From contig JALGZK010000007.1 of the NCBI GenBank assembly GCA_025774935.1, positions 1-64,000 on the forward strand: a stretch of 64,000 nt of DNA. Reading direction: 5' to 3'. Source of the DNA: a bacterium (GTDB lineage: Bacteria; Joyebacterota; Joyebacteria; Joyebacterales; Joyebacteraceae). The notes beneath the pieces are model-generated. The model was not told where the DNA came from. It was given only the letters and a program-made list of their open reading frames with translations, and ran no database searches. Made by a program: the position numbers and the translations under genes. Each line of letters starts with the position of its first letter. The stretch's first letter is position 1. This document shows positions 2,729 through 60,159 of this stretch, one piece after another.

Positions 2729-4150
2729 TCAGCGCAGGACCGTGATCTTCGTCGTTTCCTCATGTTGGTCGGTCGCGAGGCGGCAGAGGTAGATGCCCGA
2801 AGCCACGTCCGCCCCCGAAGAGTCCTTCCCGTCCCAGTGCACCTCGTGCTTCCCGGCGTCCACGGTTCCCGCAACGAGGCGCCTTACGAGCCTGCCGCTC
2901 ACGTCGTAGACCTCGAGGTCGACCCGCGCTCTCTCGGGCAGGTTCAGCGAAAGCGTCGTCGCTCCGCGCATCGGGTTCGGATACGCGCGCATGCGGGAGG
3001 CCACCTCCGCCTCGCCCGGCGCGTCCGGATCGTCCGCGACGCCGGTCGCCGTCGTGCGGATGATGAACCAGCGATTGGCCCACGGGGGCATAGTGTCCAT
3101 GCCGATCCCGACCATCGTCGTGGCGTCGGCCGAGACGCCCGTGAGCGTCTGGATCCTGAACGACGTGGGGACGGTGACGCCGTTGTCGTTGAGGTAGTCC
3201 TCGATGTCGTACATCCCCGTCTCTTCCGTCCAGACGAACCCGGTCGACTGGGTCCAGTCGTAGGCGTTGTACCCGACGATCGTGCTCCCGTCCGGGGTCA
3301 TGTCGTTGCAGATCACCGAGCCGTAGTGCGGGAACGTGTTCGGGAGCGTCCCGAGCCGGTCCTCGTCCCAGGACGACCCGTTCCAGCGCCACAGCGTGGC
3401 CACAGAGATGGAGAGCGAATCGTCGTAGGCCTGCCCGCCGACGATCGTGCCGTCGTAGTTGACCGTGTTGAGTATGGCCATTGCGTCGGTCTCCTGGAGG
3501 ATCGTCATCTCCTCGTCGACCCACACCGTCGGCTGCCACCCGCCGACGTCGGACTCGGCCCAGCCCACGATGACGGAGCCGTCGTAGTTCGCAGCGTTCG
3601 CGCGGCTGTTCCCGCCGGCACTGCCGAGGTCCACCATCCCGCCGTCTACGGTCCACCTGCAGGCATGGGCGAGACCGTCTCCAACCGGTCCGCCGTGTCC
3701 CGGCCGCCAGTAGAGCCCGACGACGGTGGTGCCGTCGCCGGAGAGGCCCCACGCGGAACCGTACGCGTTGTCGATGAGTCCGCCGTCCGGGAGCGTCGGC
3801 GGCATCAGCTCGAGCCAGCCTTCGTCCAGCGTCCAGCGGCCTACCGTCGCGTATGTGCTGTCGCGTCCCAGGATCGTCGCGGAGGCGTGTACGCCGTCGT
3901 CCGAGACATCGGGCGTGCCGGCGCCGACTCCGAGAACCGGGACCGTCGCGAGACCGAGGAGGACCATGCCGTCCTCCTGCGTCCAGCGAAAGGTTTCGTA
4001 GGCGCCGTTGGTGTTTCCGACAACGACCGTGCCGTCGTCGGAGATGTCGGTAGCACCGCCCTCGGCGATGATCTCGAACGTGACTTCGGCCTGTGCTGTT
4101 GCGCAGACGGCGAGTACTCCCACGAGCAGAATGAACCGTACGATCTCCAT
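2729..4150 (-). CDS. Secreted HAF-repeat protein with FlgD-like C-terminal domain (paralogue 1)
   Basis: A signal peptide (1-21, ending AQA) is followed by a beta-propeller-like array of HAF-type repeats recognisable by D-G-[TS]-x-[VI]-V-G cores (SDDGTVVVGN, GDGTTVVGL, YDGSVIVGW, PDGSTIVGY). A FlgD-like/T9SS-like beta-sandwich occupies about residues 385-473 (YPNP, VYDVSGRLVRRLV, HWDGKDSSG, SGIYLCRL). Such C-terminal domains are common on secreted proteins of FCB-related lineages, where they act in sorting or anchoring. AAGGAG lies 9 bases before the ATG. The neighbour upstream (4220-5599) is a close paralogue in the same orientation, so this is a tandem duplication. The function is unknown; a surface or extracellular role is inferred. 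Confidence 0.82.
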   Translation of the reverse strand: MEIVRFILLVGVLAVCATAQAEVTFEIIAEGGATDISDDGTVVVGNTNGAYETFRWTQEDGMVLLGLATVPVLGVGAGTPDVSDDGVHASATILGRDSTYATVGRWTLDEGWLELMPPTLPDGGLIDNAYGSAWGLSGDGTTVVGLYWRPGHGGPVGDGLAHACRWTVDGGMVDLGSAGGNSRANAANYDGSVIVGWAESDVGGWQPTVWVDEEMTILQETDAMAILNTVNYDGTIVGGQAYDDSLSISVATLWRWNGSSWDEDRLGTLPNTFPHYGSVICNDMTPDGSTIVGYNAYDWTQSTGFVWTEETGMYDIEDYLNDNGVTVPTSFRIQTLTGVSADATTMVGIGMDTMPPWANRWFIIRTTATGVADDPDAPGEAEVASRMRAYPNPMRGATTLSLNLPERARVDLEVYDVSGRLVRRLVAGTVDAGKHEVHWDGKDSSGADVASGIYLCRLATDQHEETTKITVLR

Positions 4151-4219: not shown

Positions 4220-5599
4220 TTACCTCAGAACCGTGATCTTGCGCGTCTCTCTCGTGTCTTCGGTCGTGAGTCTGCAGAAGTAGATGCCGGACGTCACTTC
4301 GATACCCGACGCGTCCCTTCCGTCCCAGTACACCTCCTGTTGTCCGGCTTCGACGGACCCGGTCACCAGCTTCTTCACCAGCCTGCCGCTTATGTCGTAG
4401 ACGGCGAGATCGACGCGGCCGCTCCGGGGGATGGAGAGCGACAGCGTCGTCTCTCCGCGTGTCGGGTTCGGGTACGCGTGGACGCGGGAGGTCACCTGAG
4501 CGGGTGATTCCTCGATGCCCGTCGATTGCGTGTTAATGAAGAACCACCTGGCGGTGTACGGCGGGTAGATGTCGTAGCAGATTCCGACCATGGTGGAGCC
4601 GTCCGGGGTGATCGCCTGAAGCGAGACGATGTTGATGTCGGACGGCACGATGACTCCGTTATCCGTGAGGTAGTCCTCCACGTCCATGACGCCGGTCTCT
4701 TCCGTCCAGATGAACCCGGTCGCGTCCCCGGGATTGGAGAACCGGTTGTAGCCGACGATGACGCTACCGTCTTCCGTCGCGTCGTAGCAGAGGGCCATGC
4801 CGAAGTTCGGGTGCAGTCCGGGGAGCGCTCCCAGCAGATCCTCGTCCCACGAGGTCCCGTTCCAGATCCACCGGGCCGCCACCCTGAGGTTGGTAGAGTC
4901 GTCGAGCGCCTGCCCCAGGACCACGGACCCGTCCCGAAGCACCGCGGTTGCCTCGCAGAACGCTTCGTCCTCCGCGAGGATCGTCTTGACGCCATCGACC
5001 CAGACGGTCGGCTGCCAGTGCCCGAAATCGGATTCGTCCCAGCCGGCGATCACGGTTCCATCTTCGTTGGCGTCGTTGGCCCGGCTGTTGCCGCCGCTGC
5101 TTCCGAGGCCGACCGCGCCGGTCTCTCTCGTCCACGTGCTCCCGTGCGCGCTTCCGCCCGGCTGTCCCGCACGCCAATAGAGCCCGACCACGGTGCTTCC
5201 GTCATCCGAGAGGCCCCACGCCGAGCCGTAGGAGTCGCTCATTGGGTTCCCGTCCGGCGGCGGAGGCGGCATCGTCTCTTCCCAACCCGCACCGAGCGTC
5301 CACCTACCCTGCGTCCAGTAGGTTCCATCGGCGCCGGGAATGCTCGCCGACACCTGCGTGCCGTCCGCCGAGACGTCGGGCGAACCGGATCCGCCTCCCT
5401 CGGCGAGGATCTCTATGCCGCCCTCGGCGGTCCAGCGAAATGGCTCGTACAGACCTTCGGTATTCCCGACCACGACCGACGCGTCGTCGGAGATGTCGGT
5501 CGCGTACCCTACGTCGATGATCTCGAACGTGACCTCGGCCCGAACGATTCCTGAGAGCACGGCCGACACCACCAGCAGTGCGAGACACGTGACCTTCAT
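4220..5599 (-). CDS. Secreted HAF-repeat protein with FlgD-like C-terminal domain (paralogue 2)
   Basis: It has the same architecture as the next gene downstream: signal peptide, repeated D-G-S-x-V-V-G units (DDGSTVVGLYW, EDGTVIAGW, EDGSVIVGYN, PDGSTMVGI) and a FlgD-like domain ending CRLTTEDTRETRKITVLR. The alignment runs end to end with shared landmarks such as GSAWGLS-DG-T-VVGLYWR and GNSRAN-AN. The start is placed at the ATG of MKVTC because AAGGAG is 9 bases upstream; an ATG three codons earlier would sit too close to it. Sequence divergence between the copies is highest in the loops, which suggests an old duplication. The ligand or role is not known. Confidence 0.82.
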   Translation of the reverse strand: MKVTCLALLVVSAVLSGIVRAEVTFEIIDVGYATDISDDASVVVGNTEGLYEPFRWTAEGGIEILAEGGGSGSPDVSADGTQVSASIPGADGTYWTQGRWTLGAGWEETMPPPPPDGNPMSDSYGSAWGLSDDGSTVVGLYWRAGQPGGSAHGSTWTRETGAVGLGSSGGNSRANDANEDGTVIAGWDESDFGHWQPTVWVDGVKTILAEDEAFCEATAVLRDGSVVLGQALDDSTNLRVAARWIWNGTSWDEDLLGALPGLHPNFGMALCYDATEDGSVIVGYNRFSNPGDATGFIWTEETGVMDVEDYLTDNGVIVPSDINIVSLQAITPDGSTMVGICYDIYPPYTARWFFINTQSTGIEESPAQVTSRVHAYPNPTRGETTLSLSIPRSGRVDLAVYDISGRLVKKLVTGSVEAGQQEVYWDGRDASGIEVTSGIYFCRLTTEDTRETRKITVLR

Positions 5600-5693
5600 A
5601 CTCTCCATCTCCTTGCGTGTGGGCTGAGCTCAGTCGAGCGCGGTCTCATGCCCGCATCTTGTGCGCGAGACTCCCGTCGTCCCCGACTCGGTC

Positions 5694-5757: not shown

Positions 5758-6417
5758 CTAGCGATACAGAGCCTTGATCTCGCCCCACGTCGCGCTCTCC
5801 ACCGGCGTCGAGCCGGGGAGACCTTCGATCAGGATCGACGAGTCGAGTCCCGGGTTGAAGTTGAACCACATCGAGGGCGGCGGGAACGCGTACACGTCGT
5901 AGGATGCGCTCGCATCCAGAAGGTACGTCATGGACGACAGATGAATCTCCGGGCCGAACGGGCCGGCCGGGGCGATCGGGGTGATGCCGATCCAGTAGTC
6001 GCCCTCTCCGAGCGGGATGTCCAGACCGGATGCGGTCACGACGAAGTGGTCCATGTCGAGCACCGCGGACATCGCCACGATCGGGCTCGCGGTCGGATCG
6101 TCGGTGCCGTCGATCGGCAGCGGGCCTGTCTTGTCGTAGACGTGCAGGTAGCCCTGCGTGATGCCGTCGCCCCAGACCATGTCGAGGGCGGAGTAGTACG
6201 TGCTGATGCTCTGAACGGTCCAGCCCGAGGCGTCGACGGTCACGTCGCTCACGGTGTGGACCTGCATCCCGAAGGGCGGGGCGCCGGCGTCGGCGTTGAA
6301 GAAGCCCATGCCCCAGACATCGTAGTCCGACTGGTCCCAGAGGATGTCGGCGGCGGCGGCCTGCGCCATCGCGAGTGCGGCGACCATCACGACAAGCATC
6401 GTAAGTCTTACGTTCAT
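5758..6417 (-). CDS. Secreted protein of unknown function ending in WGEIKALYR
   Basis: A 219-residue protein with a signal peptide (MNVRLTMLVVMVAALAMAQA) and an all-beta-looking body rich in Trp, Tyr, Gly and Asp. It recalls the PEP-CTERM-type exported proteins (SxxDVWGMGFFN..., DYWIGITP), but it has no PEP-CTERM tail. It ends TPVESATWGEIKALYR. The same terminal signature occurs on two unrelated secreted proteins in this window (52010-52933 and 54624-55436). The start is the ATG with GAGGAG 7 bases upstream; a GTG five codons earlier lies inside that ribosome site. I do not recognise the family. Cell-surface or extracellular location is inferred. Confidence 0.72.
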   Translation of the reverse strand: MNVRLTMLVVMVAALAMAQAAAADILWDQSDYDVWGMGFFNADAGAPPFGMQVHTVSDVTVDASGWTVQSISTYYSALDMVWGDGITQGYLHVYDKTGPLPIDGTDDPTASPIVAMSAVLDMDHFVVTASGLDIPLGEGDYWIGITPIAPAGPFGPEIHLSSMTYLLDASASYDVYAFPPPSMWFNFNPGLDSSILIEGLPGSTPVESATWGEIKALYR

Positions 6418-49718: not shown

Positions 49719-51833
49719 GTGAGAACGATGCTCATCCTCGCGGTGGCAGTCGTTCTGGCGATCGCCCTGCCTGTCACGGCGAGCGAGATCCACGACGCGG
49801 CCGCCGAAGGAGATGATGCGCGAGTGAAGGAACTCCTGAAGGAGAATCCGGAGCTCGCGCTCGAGAAGGACGTAAGGAACGAGACGGTCCTCCACATCGC
49901 GGCCCGTGAGGGCCATCTCGAAGTGGTCAAGGCCGCGCTCAAGGCGGGAGCCCCCATCGACATCGGCGACAACGAGGGGAGCACGCCGCTCGATGTCGCG
50001 GCGATCTTCGGACACATGGAGCTCGCCGAGTACCTCGTCAAGAAGGGCGCCGCCATCGACCACGCCGACGTCAACGGCCTCACGCCCCTGCATTTCGCCG
50101 CCTACAACGAGCAGCCCGAGATCACCGCGTTCCTGATCGAACGCGGCGCCGACGTCAGCGCCTTGACGGCTGGCAGCAGCACCCCGCTCCACGGCGCCGC
50201 CTACAACGGCGACGTCGCTACCATGACGGTCCTCCTCGAGAACGGCGCCGATCCGAACGCAAGAAACAGCGCCGGCTACACGCCGATCCTGAGCGGAGCC
50301 GCTGTGAACGGCGGACTCGACGCGATCGAGCTTCTCGTCGCTCACGGAGCGGACATCTACGACCGCGTACACGAGGGCTCGAGCGCGCTCATGTTCGCGG
50401 CCGCCGCCGGAAAGCCCGATCTCGTCCGCTACTTCCTCGAGGCGGGCGTGCCTCCGGACGCGCGGAACAACCACGAGTGGATGGCGATCCATACCGCCGC
50501 CGAGGGCGGCAACGTCGAGATCATCGACATCCTCGTCGAGAACGGGGCCGACGTGAACGCAGGCTGCGGGTTCGGAAGGACTGCCGTCACCTGGGCAGTG
50601 CTCCGCAGTCACCAGGAAGCGACGGCGCGGCTTCTCGAGCTCGGCGCCGATCCCGACCCTGTGGACGACTGGGGCGGCACGCCGCTCGCGCGCGCGTTCC
50701 TGAACGGTGACATCGAGATCGCGCGACTCCTGATCAGCGCCGGCGCCGATGTCAACAGGCCGGCGGGTGACTGGGAGCGCTCGATCCTGCACACCGCCGC
50801 CGTCAGCGGCCGGACCGACCTCATCGCGCTGGCCGTCGAGTTCTCCGCCGACGTGAACGCTGTCGATGCCTACGGAATGACTCCGATCGAGTACGCGGCA
50901 CGCTACGGGCACAAGGACGCGGCGGACGCGCTCATCGCGGCGGGCGCTCGGGCCGAAGGCCTTGAGGAGAACTACGGTCGCCCCGAGCTCCTCGACCAGC
51001 GTGTCGCGGACGGCGAGGCGGTGATGTGGTATCTTGGTCACTGCGGGTTCGCCGTCAAGACGAGAGACCACTTCATGGTCTTCGACTACTGGAAGGACGA
51101 CGACGCACCAGCGTCCGCCTCGCTCTCGAACGGCCACATCGTGGCGTCTGAACTCGACGGCCAGAACGTTGTCGTCTTCGTCACCCACGGCCACGGCGAC
51201 CACTTCGATCCTCGGATCTTCGATTGGGCCGACTCCGTCGGGAAGATCGAGTACGTCTACGGGTTCCGTCCCGAGCTCACGGAGCCGTACCGCACGGACG
51301 GATACGAGGGTCCGGAGTATCAGTTCATTGGTCCCCGTGAGCAGGCCACGTTCGGCGACGTCGAGGTAAGGACGATCGAGGCGAACGACGGCGGCGTCGG
51401 GTTCCTGGTCTCGGTCGACGGCATCGTCCTCTATCACGCCGGCGACCACGCCGGGTGGGCCGAGGGCGAGCGCGACGGGTATTTCGCCGAGATCGACTAC
51501 CTCGACCCGTTCGTGGACGAGCTCGACCTGGCGTTCGTGAACGTCACGGGCTGTCACGCGCACGACCCCGATCGGCTCCGCGAGGGCAACCTCTACACGA
51601 TGGAGAAGCTCAAGCCAGCGGTGGTCGTCCCGACGCACGCGTTCAATCGGGAGTACGCCTACGCCGACGCGGCGGTGGAGTTCGCGGAGGCCGGCTGCAC
51701 CACGCCGTGCTGTCTCCCGGTGAACTGCGGCGACAGCTTCGTCTACTCGAGCGGCAGGGTCGCGATCCTCGCCCCCGCCATCCCGGCAGGAAGCGCGATG
51801 GCGAACGCGACGGTTCCTACCTGCGCGCCCTGA
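49719..51833 (+). CDS. Exported ankyrin-repeat/metallo-beta-lactamase-fold fusion
   Basis: A 704-residue protein: signal peptide (ending PVTAS), about eleven ankyrin repeats (residues ~25-415; G-x-TPLH-AA and L-GAD-N units such as NGLTPLHFAAYNEQPEITAFLIERGADV), then a metallo-beta-lactamase domain (about 425-690) with VFVTHGHGDHFDP (H-x-H-x-D-H), YHAGDHAGW and PTHAFNREYAYADAA, plus a Cys-rich patch (CTTPCCLPVNCG). The second part resembles UlaG-like hydrolases, which act on sugar lactones or phosphodiesters. I do not recall this fusion as a named family. Start is GTG 49719 with GGGAGGAG close upstream. Periplasmic by inference. Confidence 0.82.
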   Translation: MRTMLILAVAVVLAIALPVTASEIHDAAAEGDDARVKELLKENPELALEKDVRNETVLHIAAREGHLEVVKAALKAGAPIDIGDNEGSTPLDVAAIFGHMELAEYLVKKGAAIDHADVNGLTPLHFAAYNEQPEITAFLIERGADVSALTAGSSTPLHGAAYNGDVATMTVLLENGADPNARNSAGYTPILSGAAVNGGLDAIELLVAHGADIYDRVHEGSSALMFAAAAGKPDLVRYFLEAGVPPDARNNHEWMAIHTAAEGGNVEIIDILVENGADVNAGCGFGRTAVTWAVLRSHQEATARLLELGADPDPVDDWGGTPLARAFLNGDIEIARLLISAGADVNRPAGDWERSILHTAAVSGRTDLIALAVEFSADVNAVDAYGMTPIEYAARYGHKDAADALIAAGARAEGLEENYGRPELLDQRVADGEAVMWYLGHCGFAVKTRDHFMVFDYWKDDDAPASASLSNGHIVASELDGQNVVVFVTHGHGDHFDPRIFDWADSVGKIEYVYGFRPELTEPYRTDGYEGPEYQFIGPREQATFGDVEVRTIEANDGGVGFLVSVDGIVLYHAGDHAGWAEGERDGYFAEIDYLDPFVDELDLAFVNVTGCHAHDPDRLREGNLYTMEKLKPAVVVPTHAFNREYAYADAAVEFAEAGCTTPCCLPVNCGDSFVYSSGRVAILAPAIPAGSAMANATVPTCAP

Positions 51834-52009: not shown

Positions 52010-52933
52010 ATGAAGAGAGCGATCGTGCTCTTGTGCATTGCCCTCCTGGTGTCGTCGCCGGTGATGGCGATCGCCAGGCAGAGCCTCAGGGAGGCGGTTC
52101 CGGACCTCCCGGACGACCAGGAACCGCTCGTCGTCGCGGATGTGCTCATCGCGATCGACATCGACGCGAACCCAGGATTCGCCGATCTCACCTCGCGCTA
52201 CGCGGACGCGTTCACTGCCGCGGGCGCGGCGTCCGTCGCGACCTGCGCCGTCGAGGCGACCGGCGGAACGATCAACTTCCCGCCGGACGTGACGTACGCG
52301 AACTATCCGGTGGTCGTCGTTCTCACGAGCGAGAACTGGTGGGAGATCCCGAGCAACATCGACCCTGCCGACGAGGTCGTCCTCATGAACTACCTCGACA
52401 GCGGCGGCAACCTCCTCCTGGTCGGTCAGGATTACATGTACGGCTCGCACGGGGACATGGACGGCGCCTCCAACCCCTGCTACGGGTTCCCGCTCAACTA
52501 CCTCGGTCTTGATCTCGTCTTCCAGGACTTCGACGGGCCGACGCCGCCGATGCGGAAGGGCGAGCCCCACGACGGAGAGCGGTCCGAGGTGGCAACGCTC
52601 TACGGCCGCGCCAATTGGATCCTCGTGGGCCTGGTGGTCATCATCGTCGCCAACACGGTCTTCATCAATAACCCGTTCTACACGGACCGCGGGGTGCCCG
52701 TGAGCAGGGGGGCCGGGATGGGTCTCGACTACGAGGGGGAATTCGCCTCGGCTGAGGGAGTTCTGACCTACTACGAGACGGACACGTTCCAGGCTGTCTG
52801 GTCTGGCGTCGAGATCTCCGCGGCCGGCGACGAGGACTTCAACGAGATCATCGCGCGACTCTACGAGTGGTTCGACGGCGAGACGCCCGTCCAGCGCCTC
52901 CACTGGGGAGCGATCAAGGCGCTGTATCGCTGA
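52010..52933 (+). CDS. Exported protein with internal membrane segment, ending WGAIKALYR
   Basis: A 307-residue protein: signal peptide (ending PVMAIA), an alpha/beta domain (about 40-200: VLIAIDIDANPGFADLTSRYADAFTAAG..., YPVVVVLTSENWW, LDSGGNLLLVGQDYMYG) that looks like a class-I-amidotransferase-like Rossmann fold, a hydrophobic segment WILVGLVVIIVANTVFI near 205-222, and a tail ending TPVQRLHWGAIKALYR. The tail matches two other secreted proteins in the window. GGGAGGAG is 4-5 bases before the ATG. It stands alone between two terminators. I do not recognise the family; the mid-protein hydrophobic stretch could be a buried strand rather than a span. Confidence 0.68.
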   Translation: MKRAIVLLCIALLVSSPVMAIARQSLREAVPDLPDDQEPLVVADVLIAIDIDANPGFADLTSRYADAFTAAGAASVATCAVEATGGTINFPPDVTYANYPVVVVLTSENWWEIPSNIDPADEVVLMNYLDSGGNLLLVGQDYMYGSHGDMDGASNPCYGFPLNYLGLDLVFQDFDGPTPPMRKGEPHDGERSEVATLYGRANWILVGLVVIIVANTVFINNPFYTDRGVPVSRGAGMGLDYEGEFASAEGVLTYYETDTFQAVWSGVEISAAGDEDFNEIIARLYEWFDGETPVQRLHWGAIKALYR

Positions 52934-53144: not shown

Positions 53145-53594
53145 ATGCTCGAGAACTACTGGTGGATCTGGTTCGCGCTCGCCGCGATCTTCATCATTGT
53201 AGAGATCTTCACGGCGGGCTTCTTCATTCTGTGGTTCGGTGTGGGCGCAGCAGTCGCAGGAGTTCTCGCGCTACTCGGGCTCGACCCGGTCTGGCAGTGG
53301 GGAGCGTTCGTGGTCGTCTCGGCGGCGCTCTTCGCGGGGTCGAGGCGGTTCGCGGAACGGTTCTCGAAGAAGCAGCCCCCCGGAATCGGCGCCGACCGGC
53401 TCATAGGCAAGCGGGGCGTCGTGCTCGAGGCGATCGACGACGTCGGGAACACCGGACGCGTCAGGATCGACAAGGAAGAGTGGCGAGCCGATGCCCATGA
53501 AGCCGAGGCGGTGCCTGAGGGTGCGCGTGTCGAAGTGGTCAGGCTCGAGGGCACGCACGTCGTCGTGAGACAGCTCAAGGAGGAGCAATCATGA
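53145..53594 (+). CDS. nfeD: NfeD-like membrane protein
   Basis: A 149-residue protein: three hydrophobic segments in the first ~70 residues ([54 protein letters not shown]), then a soluble OB-fold domain (about 80-145: [32 protein letters not shown]). This is the short NfeD (YbbK/NfeD1b) form. NfeD proteins pair with SPFH proteins; the next gene, overlapping by 4 bases (ATGA), is one. The pair is thought to maintain membrane microdomains or protein quality in the inner membrane. GGGAGG lies 7 bases before the ATG. Confidence 0.92.
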
Positions 53595-54508
53595 TAGGGC
53601 TCTACGCTGCAGTCGTCGTCCTCGTGCTCATCATCGCGGCCAGAGGCCTCAAGATCGTGAGGCCCTGGCAGAAGGCCCTCATCGAGCGGCTGGGACGGTA
53701 CCAGCGGACCGCGGACAGCGGCCTCTCGATCATCATCCCGTTCATGGAGAAGATGATCAAGGTCGACATGCGGGAGCAGGTCGTTGACGTTCCGCCGCAG
53801 GGCGTGATCACGAAGGACAACGTGGTCGTCGAGGTCGACGCGGTCGTGTACTACGAGGTGACCGATCCCGTGAAGGTCACCTACAACGTGGCGAGTTTCT
53901 ACCTCGCAGCCACGAAGCTCGCTCAGACAAACCTCAGGAATCTGATTGGCGACCTGGCGCTCGACGAGTCGCTCACCTCGCGCGAGATGATCAACACGAA
54001 GCTCAGAGACGTGCTTGACGACGCGACCGACAAGTGGGGAACGAAGGTGACCCGCGTCGAGCTTCAGAGGATCGAACCGCCGCAGGAAGTGATTGACGCG
54101 ATGCACCGTCAGATGAAGGCGGAGCGCGACCGTCGCGCGATGATCCTCGAGGCCGAAGGCCACAAGCAGTCGGCGATCCTGAAGGCCGAGGGCGAGGCCG
54201 AGGCGATCAAGAAGGTCGCGGACGCCGACAAGTACCAGAAGCTCACGGTCGCGAAGGGCGAGGGCGAAGCGATCCAGACGGTCTACAACGCGATCCACGA
54301 CGGGCGTCCTACGAACGACCTCATCGCGATCAAGTACCTCGAGGCTCTCCAGGCGATCGCCGACGGGAAGGCGACGAAGATCTTCCTGCCGCTCGAGACC
54401 TCGGGCGTGCTCGGGAGCATCGGTGGTATCGCCGAGCTTCTGAAGGAGAAGGTGGCGCCCCAGCGGTCCGAGCCGCCGACGCGTGGGCAGGGAACTCCGC
54501 AGCCGTAG
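53591..54508 (+). CDS. SPFH/Band 7 (stomatin/paraslipin) protein
   Basis: A 305-residue membrane-anchored protein: one N-terminal hydrophobic helix ([17 protein letters not shown]), the SPFH domain (about 25-185: [50 protein letters not shown]), and a long charged coiled coil (about 185-245, with repeats of K-A-E-G-E-A). It matches the QmcA/paraslipin group. With NfeD it forms a membrane complex. The A-E-G-[HE] repeats are typical. It is the second and last gene of the pair; a terminator follows. Confidence 0.93.
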
Positions 54509-54623: not shown

Positions 54624-55436
54624 CTATCGATAGATCCCCTTGATCGTACCCCAGCTCTCTGTTTCGACCGGCGTGACTCCAGCGATCTCCTCGTTCTCCG
54701 TGAGCCAGCAGGTCCAGGGGCCGCGCTCGCCCTCGCGGATGGCGAACTCCACCCAGGCGAGCCGCGGCGCGAAGAGGTCGTTCGCGGACACGATCTGAAG
54801 AGGGTCCATGCTCATTATGTAGTTCGCGTCGTCGTGGAAGTCGAGGAGGACATTCACGGGGGGGCCGGGCTCAAGGACCCAAGTGTTCGGTCCCGTGGGC
54901 GTCCCGAAGAGGTCGAACGACGGGAAGCTGAGCATGAAATCGACGACGTGGCCTGTGAGTGGCGGCGGCACGTTGTCCCACTGGATCATGATCTGCCCGG
55001 TGGCTCCCGCCGGGGACGCGCTGTCGATGACGGTGCCGTCCTCGTAGACGAATGTCATGGCGTCAACGGACGAGCTTTCCGCGAACACGAACAGGTTCAC
55101 GCCCCCCGGAAAGATCTCAGGAGGCTCAGCGGTCACGGCGTGCCATCCGGCGGCAGTCATGTGGGGCCCACTGCCCCCTCCGCCACCGGCACCCTTGATG
55201 CACTTGCAGTCTCTCCACGGGACGATCCCGCCGCCCGTTACCTCTTTGCAGGTCCCTATCCCACCGCCAGGGGGAGTGCACGACGTCCCTGGCTGACTGC
55301 ACGTGACGGTGGTTCCGGTGTTATGAACGTGAACGCAGCCGGTCAGGTGGCGGGAGCATCCCCCGTCGTGACCGAGTGCGCTGCCCGCGGCGAGCGCTAG
55401 GCTCATGACGGCCAAAGCGACAACGATCCATCTCAT
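54624..55436 (-). CDS. Cys-rich secreted protein ending WGTIKGIYR
   Basis: A 270-residue secreted protein: signal peptide (MRWIVVALAVMSLALAAGSALG), a cysteine-rich region of about 70 residues with eight cysteines (GGCSRHLTGC, TCSQPGTSC, GTCKEVTGGG, RDCKCIKG), a Gly-rich hinge (GGGGGSG), a beta-rich body, and the tail TPVETESWGTIKGIYR. Vicinal Cys pairs suggest disulfides. GGAGG is 7 bases before the ATG. The body resembles the secreted protein at 5758-6417 in composition only. Function unknown; surface exposure inferred from the tail shared with two other exported proteins. Confidence 0.7.
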   Translation of the reverse strand: MRWIVVALAVMSLALAAGSALGHDGGCSRHLTGCVHVHNTGTTVTCSQPGTSCTPPGGGIGTCKEVTGGGIVPWRDCKCIKGAGGGGGSGPHMTAAGWHAVTAEPPEIFPGGVNLFVFAESSSVDAMTFVYEDGTVIDSASPAGATGQIMIQWDNVPPPLTGHVVDFMLSFPSFDLFGTPTGPNTWVLEPGPPVNVLLDFHDDANYIMSMDPLQIVSANDLFAPRLAWVEFAIREGERGPWTCWLTENEEIAGVTPVETESWGTIKGIYR

Positions 55437-57063: not shown

Positions 57064-60000
57064 GTGGCTGGACAAAGACCGAACATCGAGCCTGAGCGCA
57101 ACGCGCGCGAGACACGTCGGCGACCCGACGCGTCGCGTCCCGCGCGTGAAAGGGCTCTGTCGGCCATCCAGCTGGGCCACGTCTATCTGGAATCGGACAG
57201 CTACTCCGACGCGATCGGCTGCTTCAATGAGGCCGAACGAGACGAGCTCAGAACGGAGCTGACAGGAGCTGAGGTAGCCGGGCTCCTCGCGAGCATCGCG
57301 AGGTGCCATCTGGGGCTCGGCGACCACGGCCAGGCCAGGAGGTACATACAGGACGTGGAGGGTCTCGACCTCGACGACGACGATGCGTCCGCGAAAGCGG
57401 AAGCGTACGTCGTCCTCTCGAGGGTCGAGACGAAGGGCGGACGCTTCGGCGAGGCACTCGAAGCCGCGCGCGCCGCCTACGATCTCCTTCGCGGTGGAGA
57501 AGAGAGCGAACTCCTCGCGGAGGCGAGCAAAGCGATGGGGACGGCACACGCCGAACTGGGCGACAGCGGTGCCGCGCGCGACTGCTTCATCGAGTGTCTC
57601 GTCACGAACCGGAGGCTCGGCAACGACGCCGGGGTCTCGGGCGCATACAACAACCTCGGCATCCTCGCGAAGCGCTCCGGCGACCTCGCGTCGGCCATCG
57701 ACTACTTCAGGCGTGCGCTCGAGATCGACGAGAGACTCGGGCGGCCCGCGTCGATAGCTCGTCGTCTGAACAACCTCGGCATCGCTCTCTTCAGGATGTC
57801 GAGATGGACTGAGGCGGAACAGCACCTCATCCGGGCACTCGAGATCTACTCCGGACTCGGAGCGGCGAGGGACGTCGTGTCCGTGGAGTCGGCGCTCGGG
57901 AACATCTGCCGTGTCCGGCGTGAGTGGGGGAGAGCGAGAAGCCTGTTCGAGAGTGTCCTCGAGAAGAGTAGGGAGGCCGGATATCGCCGTGCGGAAGCCC
58001 TGGCGCTCGAGTTCCTGGGGGAGCTCTCGTTCGATCGCGGCGAGTACGATGCGGCGCTCGACCTGCTCGACCAGGCGCTCGCGTGCGCGTACCGGCTCTC
58101 TTCGAGCAGCGACGTGGTCGCTGAAGTCCTGAGGAGGCGGGCGGAGGTCCTGCTCGGTCTCGGTCGACTCGACGAGGCGGAGCGAGACGGGACGAGGGCG
58201 CTCGCGCTCTGCAGGAAGCTCGGCGACCGGCTCGAGGGAGGGGCGACACTGCGCGTGCTGGCGGAGGTGTCGTACGAGCGGGGGGACGCCGACGAGGCGC
58301 GAGTCCTCGTCAGGCGGGCGGAGGACACCCTTCGCCGGACTGGAGAGTCGTTCGAGCTCGCCAAGGCCGCGTTCTCGGACGGCGTAGGGCTTGCCCGCGC
58401 CCTCCACGGAGTGCCGCTGCCGCTCGACACGATCGAGGCCAGGATCGCGACGGCGGAGGAGCTCTTCCTCAGGATCGGCGCGGCCCACTGGGCAGCAAGG
58501 TGTCGCCTGGAGCGCGCGAAGGCGCTGCGGCGGGCCGGCCGTGCCAGTCGCGCCCGGTCGTGGCTCGAGCAGGCGAGGCCCGAGTTCGAGAAAGCGGGCG
58601 ACCGTGCGGGACTCATCGAGCTCGACGCACTCCACAGGGAACTCGACAGCGAGCTCGCCGCCGCGACCGCGACCGCTTCCAGCAGATACTCGATCATCGC
58701 CGAAGCATACAGACTGCTTCAGACGTCCGGGGCCGACGTGAGCTCACTTCACTCTCTCGCAGCGAGGGTGGCGGAGGCCCTCTCGGCCGACCGGCTGCTA
58801 CTCCTGACGCTTCTTGGGAACGGGAGGGTCCGGGTGTCGACGTCGGTCGACCGCAGTGGGCGGCGTCTGGCGGAAGTCCGGCGTCTCGTCCGTTCGGTCA
58901 TCGAGGGACGTGCTTCACTCGCGCCGGTTGTTGCCGGAGCCGGGACGTCCGAGGGAGTGGTTCCGCCTGGCATAGCGGGGCTTGCGCTCGTTCCTGCCGA
59001 GTCTGTCGGTGAGGGCGACGCGAGATCACTGCTGTACGTCGACCGCCTCGCCGGTGATGGTGTCCCCGCGTTCAGCACGGCGGACGTGGAGTTCATCGCG
59101 GCCGCGTCCTCGATGCTCGATCTCGTCAGCGCGGGGGTAGCCGCTGCTGCGACAGACCACGCCGACCGCGATGAGGAGGACGACGGACACGACCTCGTCA
59201 AGGACGACTTCGTCACGCGCGATCCCCGGATGCTCTCGATCCTCGCGAACGTCGCGAGGCTCCGGGAGAGCACGATTCCGGTGCTCATCCTCGGCGAGTC
59301 TGGGGTTGGGAAGGACATCGTGGCGCGGATGATCCACGACGGAGGGCGGAGCGGAACCGGACGGTTCGTCGCGCTCAACTCCGGCGCGGTCGTGCCGAAT
59401 CTGCAGGAGAGCGAGCTCTTCGGTCATGCGAGGGGAGCGTTCACCGACGCCGTCCGGGATCGCGAGGGTCTCGTCGGAGTCGCGGAGCGGGGAACGCTCT
59501 TCCTCGACGAGATCGGTGAGATGAGCCTCGAGCTTCAGGTGAAGCTCCTGAGGTTCCTCCAGAGCGGGGAGTATCGGCGCGTCGGAGAGAGCACGCTCAG
59601 GACGAGCGACGCCAGGATTATCTCCGCGAGCAACCGTGATCTGCGCGGGGAGGTGGCTGCAGAGCGGTTCCGGCGCGATCTCTTCTACCGCCTCAGTGGG
59701 TTCGTCATCGAGGTTCCGCCGCTCCGCGAGCGGCCGCACGACATTCCGCTTCTCATGGAGCATTTCCTCGAGCTCTACTCGAGGCTGGAGGGGAAGCGGG
59801 TCGCGGGGTTCAGCCGTGAGGTCAGGGAGCTCTTCCTTCGTCACGATTGGCGCGGCAACAACGTGCGCGAGCTCGAGAACGAGGTGCGACGGGGCGTGGC
59901 GCTGTGCGACGATGGCGGGACGATCGGGCTCGACGAGATCCGGCCGGAACTCGCGGCGAGGCGCGAGGAGATCCTCCGCCGGTCAGGCCGGCTCGGGACG

Positions 60001-60159
60001 CATCCTCTCTCGCTCAGGGAAGAGGTAGAGGCCCTCGAGCGGAACCGCATCCGCGAAGCGCTCGAGACGACCGGGCACAGCAAGCGCGGAGCTGCGAAGC
60101 GGCTCGGTCTGTCGAGGACGGGGCTCTACACGAAGCTCAGGAAGTACGGAATGGAATGA
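57064..60159 (+). CDS. Sigma-54-dependent activator with TPR array and GAF domain
   Basis: A 1031-residue bacterial enhancer-binding protein. Order: TPR-like repeats (about 30-540; AYNNLGILAKRSGDLASAIDYFRRALEIDERLG is one), a GAF-like sensor (about 560-690), an acidic linker with DRDEEDDGHD, AAA+ domain (about 715-950) with Walker A GESGVGKD, GHARGAFTDA, Walker B GTLFLDEIGEM and FRRDLFYRLSGF, then a Fis-type HTH at the end (GHSKRGAAKRLGLSRTGLYTKLRKY). The sigma-54 contact loop reads GAFTDA in place of GAFTGA. There is no receiver domain, so signals probably reach it through the TPR/GAF part. Start is GTG 57064 after GGGGGG. A sigma-54 promoter with an upstream dyad lies 380 bases downstream. 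Confidence 0.9.
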   Translation: MAGQRPNIEPERNARETRRRPDASRPARERALSAIQLGHVYLESDSYSDAIGCFNEAERDELRTELTGAEVAGLLASIARCHLGLGDHGQARRYIQDVEGLDLDDDDASAKAEAYVVLSRVETKGGRFGEALEAARAAYDLLRGGEESELLAEASKAMGTAHAELGDSGAARDCFIECLVTNRRLGNDAGVSGAYNNLGILAKRSGDLASAIDYFRRALEIDERLGRPASIARRLNNLGIALFRMSRWTEAEQHLIRALEIYSGLGAARDVVSVESALGNICRVRREWGRARSLFESVLEKSREAGYRRAEALALEFLGELSFDRGEYDAALDLLDQALACAYRLSSSSDVVAEVLRRRAEVLLGLGRLDEAERDGTRALALCRKLGDRLEGGATLRVLAEVSYERGDADEARVLVRRAEDTLRRTGESFELAKAAFSDGVGLARALHGVPLPLDTIEARIATAEELFLRIGAAHWAARCRLERAKALRRAGRASRARSWLEQARPEFEKAGDRAGLIELDALHRELDSELAAATATASSRYSIIAEAYRLLQTSGADVSSLHSLAARVAEALSADRLLLLTLLGNGRVRVSTSVDRSGRRLAEVRRLVRSVIEGRASLAPVVAGAGTSEGVVPPGIAGLALVPAESVGEGDARSLLYVDRLAGDGVPAFSTADVEFIAAASSMLDLVSAGVAAAATDHADRDEEDDGHDLVKDDFVTRDPRMLSILANVARLRESTIPVLILGESGVGKDIVARMIHDGGRSGTGRFVALNSGAVVPNLQESELFGHARGAFTDAVRDREGLVGVAERGTLFLDEIGEMSLELQVKLLRFLQSGEYRRVGESTLRTSDARIISASNRDLRGEVAAERFRRDLFYRLSGFVIEVPPLRERPHDIPLLMEHFLELYSRLEGKRVAGFSREVRELFLRHDWRGNNVRELENEVRRGVALCDDGGTIGLDEIRPELAARREEILRRSGRLGTHPLSLREEVEALERNRIREALETTGHSKRGAAKRLGLSRTGLYTKLRKYGME

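Follow-up and report, generated by a model that had tools for sequence, protein, structure and literature searches.

We identified a short C-terminal tag, W-G-x-I-K-x-x-Y-R, that closes exported proteins with otherwise unrelated bodies, and we consider it very probable that this tag serves as their C-terminal sorting signal. The narrower reading, that it is a minimal sorting signal linked to the type IX secretion system (T9SS), is one that we favor by a slight balance of the evidence; recognition and export by the T9SS are inferred. The tag came to attention in the 64,000-nucleotide stretch of DNA analyzed here (the window), for which a preliminary description had proposed that it is recognized in sorting, processing or attachment. 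That proposal is supported by the strictly terminal position of the tag, its occurrence on unrelated exported bodies and its mutual exclusivity with the T9SS type A signal. It also fits the finding that elsewhere bodies of these kinds end in different sorting signals; which machine reads the tag is a matter of inference.

The three tails can be read directly in the window and are present with the positions and sequences originally described. The first (TPVESATWGEIKALYR; 5761-5808, minus strand), which fits the genome-wide pattern, lies directly before the stop codon at 5758-5760 and closes an exported protein of 219 amino acids (5758-6417, minus strand). The second (TPVQRLHWGAIKALYR; 52883-52930, plus strand) and the third (TPVETESWGTIKGIYR; 54627-54674, minus strand), each likewise before the stop codon, close exported proteins of 307 amino acids (52010-52933, plus strand) and 270 amino acids (54624-55436, minus strand). 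All three proteins carry a Sec-type signal peptide according to a heuristic score. Searches of the three against Pfam and NCBIfam returned nothing over the cut-offs, and none of them has the FlgD_ig domain, as the earlier description had stated. BLAST among the three gave no pairwise match; their bodies are accordingly unrelated by this measure, and homology over the full length, which had been named as a possible refutation, was not encountered. The third protein has a tagged paralogue (49% identical) on contig C9 (L169:551-1366). The window also encodes, on the plus strand, a protein with many ankyrin repeats and a C-terminal metallo-beta-lactamase-like domain just upstream of the second tagged gene (49719-51833), an NfeD/SPFH (Band 7) pair between the second and third tagged genes (53145-54508), for which there is no evidence of a link to the tag, and a large protein that combines TPRs with a C-terminal sigma-54 activator domain and a Fis-type HTH (57064-60159).

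A DNA pattern search found W-G-x-I-K-x-x-Y-R at 48 places in the 3.24-Mb genome, versus none for the reversed pattern. Of these copies, 44 end exactly at a stop codon; two run past the motif by a single residue and two by more. Relaxing the pattern to W-G-x-[hydrophobic]-K-x-x-[YF]-[basic or polar]-stop raises the count to 75, and the control still gives no match. From an alignment of 186 tails, 51 from this genome and 135 from others, we derived the consensus [ST]-P-V-E-x-x-[ST]-W-G-x-I-K-x-[LMI]-Y-R-stop. The tryptophan and glycine were fixed by the search expression, the remaining positions being free to vary. Across the alignment W, G, and K are invariant, and the final arginine is present in 99-100% of the tails, the isoleucine in 94-95%, the tyrosine in 94-97%, and the serine or threonine preceding the tryptophan in 91-94%. 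There is no hydrophobic segment within the last 29 residues, and the protein ends at the arginine of the motif. A minority of tags have residues beyond this arginine (YRAR, YRVR, YRD, YRP or longer; L051:3274-4977, L097:1767-3473, L008, L012, L009, and L036), among which real exceptions and frame errors could not be distinguished.

The spacing of W, K, and R at every fourth residue, together with that of the isoleucine and tyrosine, would be that of a short helix capped by the serine or threonine, an inference drawn from the residue pattern. In a structural model of one tagged family (15 sequences, mean pLDDT 84), a compact, weakly cohesin-like body, predicted to be a soluble beta-sandwich, is followed by a linker and then a helix at residues 193-204. 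Confidence in this terminal helix is low (~52), as expected for a free tether, and a helix in solution is inferred. The model contains neither a CTD-like beta domain nor a transmembrane segment. A single-sequence model of the first window protein likewise places a helix at the terminus (residues 211-218, low confidence), but at a pLDDT of 42 it provides no evidence for a helical tag.

The carriers of the tag are enriched in exported proteins, which the preliminary description had made its own test for refutation. We scored all genes by a single rule, a heuristic rather than SignalP, and used as background 243 genes drawn from the window and from 20 stretches spaced well apart. A signal peptide was found in 84% of 50 tagged proteins of this genome versus 21% of the background (Fisher p = 6e-17), and in 80% of 105 tagged proteins from other genomes under the same rule; several of the tagged proteins that fail the score are short, frame-broken, located at contig ends, or annotated with a wrong start. 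Tagged proteins occur in 72 sequence clusters, and most of their recognizable bodies contain extracellular or adhesin-like domains, the carrier domains including beta-helix, starch-binding CBM20/X25, lamin tail, PKD, plastocyanin, NHL, FG-GAP, laminin G, and Cleaved_Adhesin. Several of 103 tagged proteins match the NCBIfam choice-of-anchor E, J, and V models, and further matches in this set are to MYXO-CTERM-anchored MXAN_6652, rhombosortase- or myxosortase-dependent M36, and PEP-CTERM ScyF, some of these sorting-linked matches lying only below the curated cut-off. The names of the models indicate that such bodies have other C-terminal sorting signals in other bacteria, suggesting that the tag occupies the slot of a sorting signal. 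Tagged paralogues also occur in tandem arrays of up to four in a row (contigs C15, 8253-10064, and C12, 22740-25066, of the window's genome, G000; L047:96-3405; L070), one such family being the one modeled as a cohesin-like beta-sandwich.

The tag is widespread in the phylum of the window, most probably Ca. Effluviviacota (described in PMC11323493), where all 20 genomes examined contain between 6 and 51 stop-anchored copies. In a scan of 85,000 species genomes, the matches listed with informative titles include Eisenbacteria, Krumholzibacteria, Effluviviaceae, Latescibacterota, and Aegiribacteria, as well as, among the matches listed, single ones titled Poribacteria, Cloacimonadota, WOR-3, and Gemmatimonadota; matching genomes have 1 to 52 tags each and no control match. 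A search in related phyla, which had been suggested at the outset, is thus answered by Eisenbacteria, Krumholzibacteria, Latescibacterota, and their relatives. The strict tag is present in 37 of 47 Eisenbacteriota, and 8 of 9 strict-negative Eisenbacteriota that were retested contain variant tags such as WGKIKxRYR*. Among 2.9 million viral contigs, only three encode the tag, each time at the end of a protein. These IMG/VR contigs (L337:7493-7522, FRAWGAIKELYR; L338:1570-1599, DSGWGRIKSLYR; L339:12449-12478, GATTWGRIKTMYR) could derive from phages that infect tag-bearing hosts, or could be host DNA filed in error.

Next to the first tagged gene, at a distance of 150 bases, is a gene (4220-5608, minus strand) encoding a T9SS type A C-terminal sorting domain (FlgD_ig; TIGR04183 44.1, PF18962 34.7, and PF13860 40.5 bits), and a second type A neighbor is found at 2729-4150 (minus strand; TIGR04183 37.6, PF18962 32.6, and PF13860 51.1 bits); all three genes are on the same strand. 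Judged by these profile scores (the TIGR04183 cut-off is 23 bits), the domain that the preliminary description had called FlgD-like in the neighboring proteins matches the T9SS type A sorting signal, which had gone unrecognized there. The genome contains 150 FlgD_ig matches, a full SprA translocon (529 bits), and about 10 PorV-family proteins (for example, contig C22 of G000, 196914-198855 and 320405-321307), an expansion that suggests several specialized T9SS shuttles.

Tag and type A signal are mutually exclusive, in that no FlgD_ig domain was found inside the tagged ORFs; the single apparent case (L039) reflects a mis-chosen start, since the start that opens the signal peptide excludes the FlgD_ig stretch. 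Likewise, the 103 tagged proteins gave no match to the type A domain (TIGR04183, PF18962) or, in NCBIfam, to the type B model TIGR04131. We observed, in addition, that 26 tagged bodies have homologs ending in a type A domain, mostly in the beta-helix family. The clearest such pair is adjacent on contig C27, with the tag on one protein (L035:3407-4627) and the type A domain on the other (L035:4729-7530), the two being 37% identical. Genome-wide, tags do not cluster with type A genes beyond what is expected from random placement.

Each of the phylum's 13 near-complete genomes encodes SprA, as do about 38 of 43 other tag genomes and nearly all Eisenbacteriota. Tag genomes without convincing SprA, which are drafts, include one with no match (G069) and two with weak fragments only (G029 and G042). 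Because the T9SS is so general in these phyla, its co-occurrence with the tag is weak evidence, amounting to consistency and not to proof. Most Eisenbacteriota genomes also encode a second family of ~1000-1400 amino acids that matches the SprA model weakly and only at positions ~600-650 (for example, G050:C130:16003-16161), perhaps an outer-membrane protein with a short SprA-like stretch.

C-terminal sorting signals are a known kind of signal, and the tag differs from the named classes with which we compared it (type C was not among them) in its length, its fold, and the lack of a membrane anchor. No model for the tag itself exists in NCBIfam (June 2026) or Pfam, and a search of the open-licence literature for the motif or for C-terminal sorting in these phyla returned nothing relevant, which does not exclude an earlier description. 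The tag resembles PEP-CTERM, which is read by exosortases, as well as GlyGly-CTERM (rhombosortase), MYXO-CTERM, and LPXTG, in being a short C-terminal signal on many unrelated exported proteins, and several tagged bodies match families that carry signals of these types elsewhere. In those systems, however, a transmembrane helix and then basic residues come after the motif, whereas the tag ends at its arginine and has no transmembrane helix, and none of the CTERM models match the tails. The C-terminal signal of outer-membrane beta-barrels is a terminal aromatic residue on the last barrel strand; the last residue of the tag is, in contrast, an arginine in 99-100% of the tails, and the modeled body is a soluble beta-sandwich.

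The closest likeness is to the T9SS type A signal. Both are C-terminal, are found on Sec-exported proteins with many unrelated bodies in the same genomes, and may alternate on homologous bodies. The type A signal is, however, an Ig-like beta-sandwich of roughly 75 residues, whereas the tag spans ~16 residues with a nine-residue helical core. Type A, type B, and short T9SS CTDs are all beta folds; type B forms a domain family of its own, and in Prevotella intermedia the short CTDs comprise 43-55 residues with three beta-strands (PMC11969387), the tag being shorter than either and without beta-strands. Short CTDs of this size do function in Prevotella (PMC11969387), and T9SS export of HBP35 depends on the final 22 residues of its CTD (PMC3120885). 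Type B and type C CTDs are alternatives to type A in the same secretion system (PMC10202324), and different T9SS signals use different shuttles (PMC12618676; PMC10202324).

It is plausible, on the T9SS-linked reading, that the tail is built of a short linker ([ST]PVE), a serine or threonine helix cap, and a nine-residue amphipathic helix, W-G-x-I-K-x-[LMI]-Y-R, of which the arginine is the C-terminus. Sec would carry the protein into the periplasm, where the N-terminal signal peptide would be removed and the free tail would be read, with the T9SS as the most probable reader; within it, the candidates are the SprA translocon acting together with a PorV-like shuttle, or a different subunit. The tagged protein would then cross the outer membrane or be placed on it, so that the tag could be a pared-down substitute for the ~75-residue type A domain encoded at about 150 other places in the genome. 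Recognition by the T9SS, a destination at the surface, and any cleavage or attachment are all inferred.

We found no dedicated sortase or secretion gene for the tag and identified no reader protein, cleavage site, or attachment enzyme. Beside the tagged genes there is no recurrent enzyme or shuttle, the only widely recurrent neighboring family being a cluster of type A proteins. A tag-specific PorV subfamily was considered and rejected, as no clade tracks the tag in a tree of 111 proteins from 16 genomes; the contrast between tag-bearing and tag-less genomes in this tree is weakened by the variant tags carried by most "tag-less" Eisenbacteria. The PorV clades, none of them specific to the tag, and the absence of likeness to T9SS CTDs count against the T9SS-linked reading, as do the fact that the sharing of bodies with type A proteins rests mainly on one family, the beta-helix proteins, the want of an identified reader, and the few tag genomes, drafts though they are, without a convincing SprA.

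These points leave room for a surface-sorting signal that is independent of the T9SS and serves a separate, unknown outer-membrane machine or anchoring enzyme, comparable to PEP-CTERM and the exosortases, a possibility that we regard as unlikely but not to be neglected. The helix-like tag is unlike any T9SS signal and is missed by T9SS-type HMMs, its distribution is not followed by any PorV-family clade, and the tagged bodies come from families that use several unrelated sorting systems. Set against this, tagged and type A proteins share bodies and coexist in genomes with SprA, no enzyme recurs beside the tagged genes, and there is no transmembrane segment on which an exosortase-type enzyme could act. 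That the tag is the signal of a new T9SS-independent outer-membrane sorting or anchoring pathway, with dozens of proteins per genome in several uncultured FCB-related phyla, is likewise a minority view, to be held tentatively. Less probable still is a docking or retention peptide, whose terminal helix would bind a scaffold or outer-membrane protein non-covalently while the protein uses another export route or stays in the periplasm. An amphipathic helix that is short and always closes on the same residue would be typical of peptide ligands (an inference), and some bodies, such as the plastocyanin-like ones, could work in the periplasm, but most of the recognizable bodies are extracellular or adhesin-like, and the bodies shared with T9SS type A cargo point to the surface. 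That the three tails are alike by chance, or merely because the proteins share an ancestor, can be set aside almost entirely: for two of the window proteins no relatives were detected in the tagged set, so that an old common origin could not be excluded from the window alone, but reversed-pattern controls, with zero matches in every genome tested, rule out the former, the number of clusters with tagged proteins rules out the latter, and the terminal position and key residues are kept across phyla.

If the tag is a sorting signal, it would provide a marker for surface or secreted proteins of several uncultured phyla, many of these proteins having no domain annotation, and in each genome it would bring dozens of exported proteins that are now unassigned into a single pathway. 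Should the T9SS read it, a nine-residue helix would do the work of a 75-residue domain, making minimal T9SS cargo recognition directly testable; should it not, an unknown outer-membrane sorting machine would exist in these bacteria.
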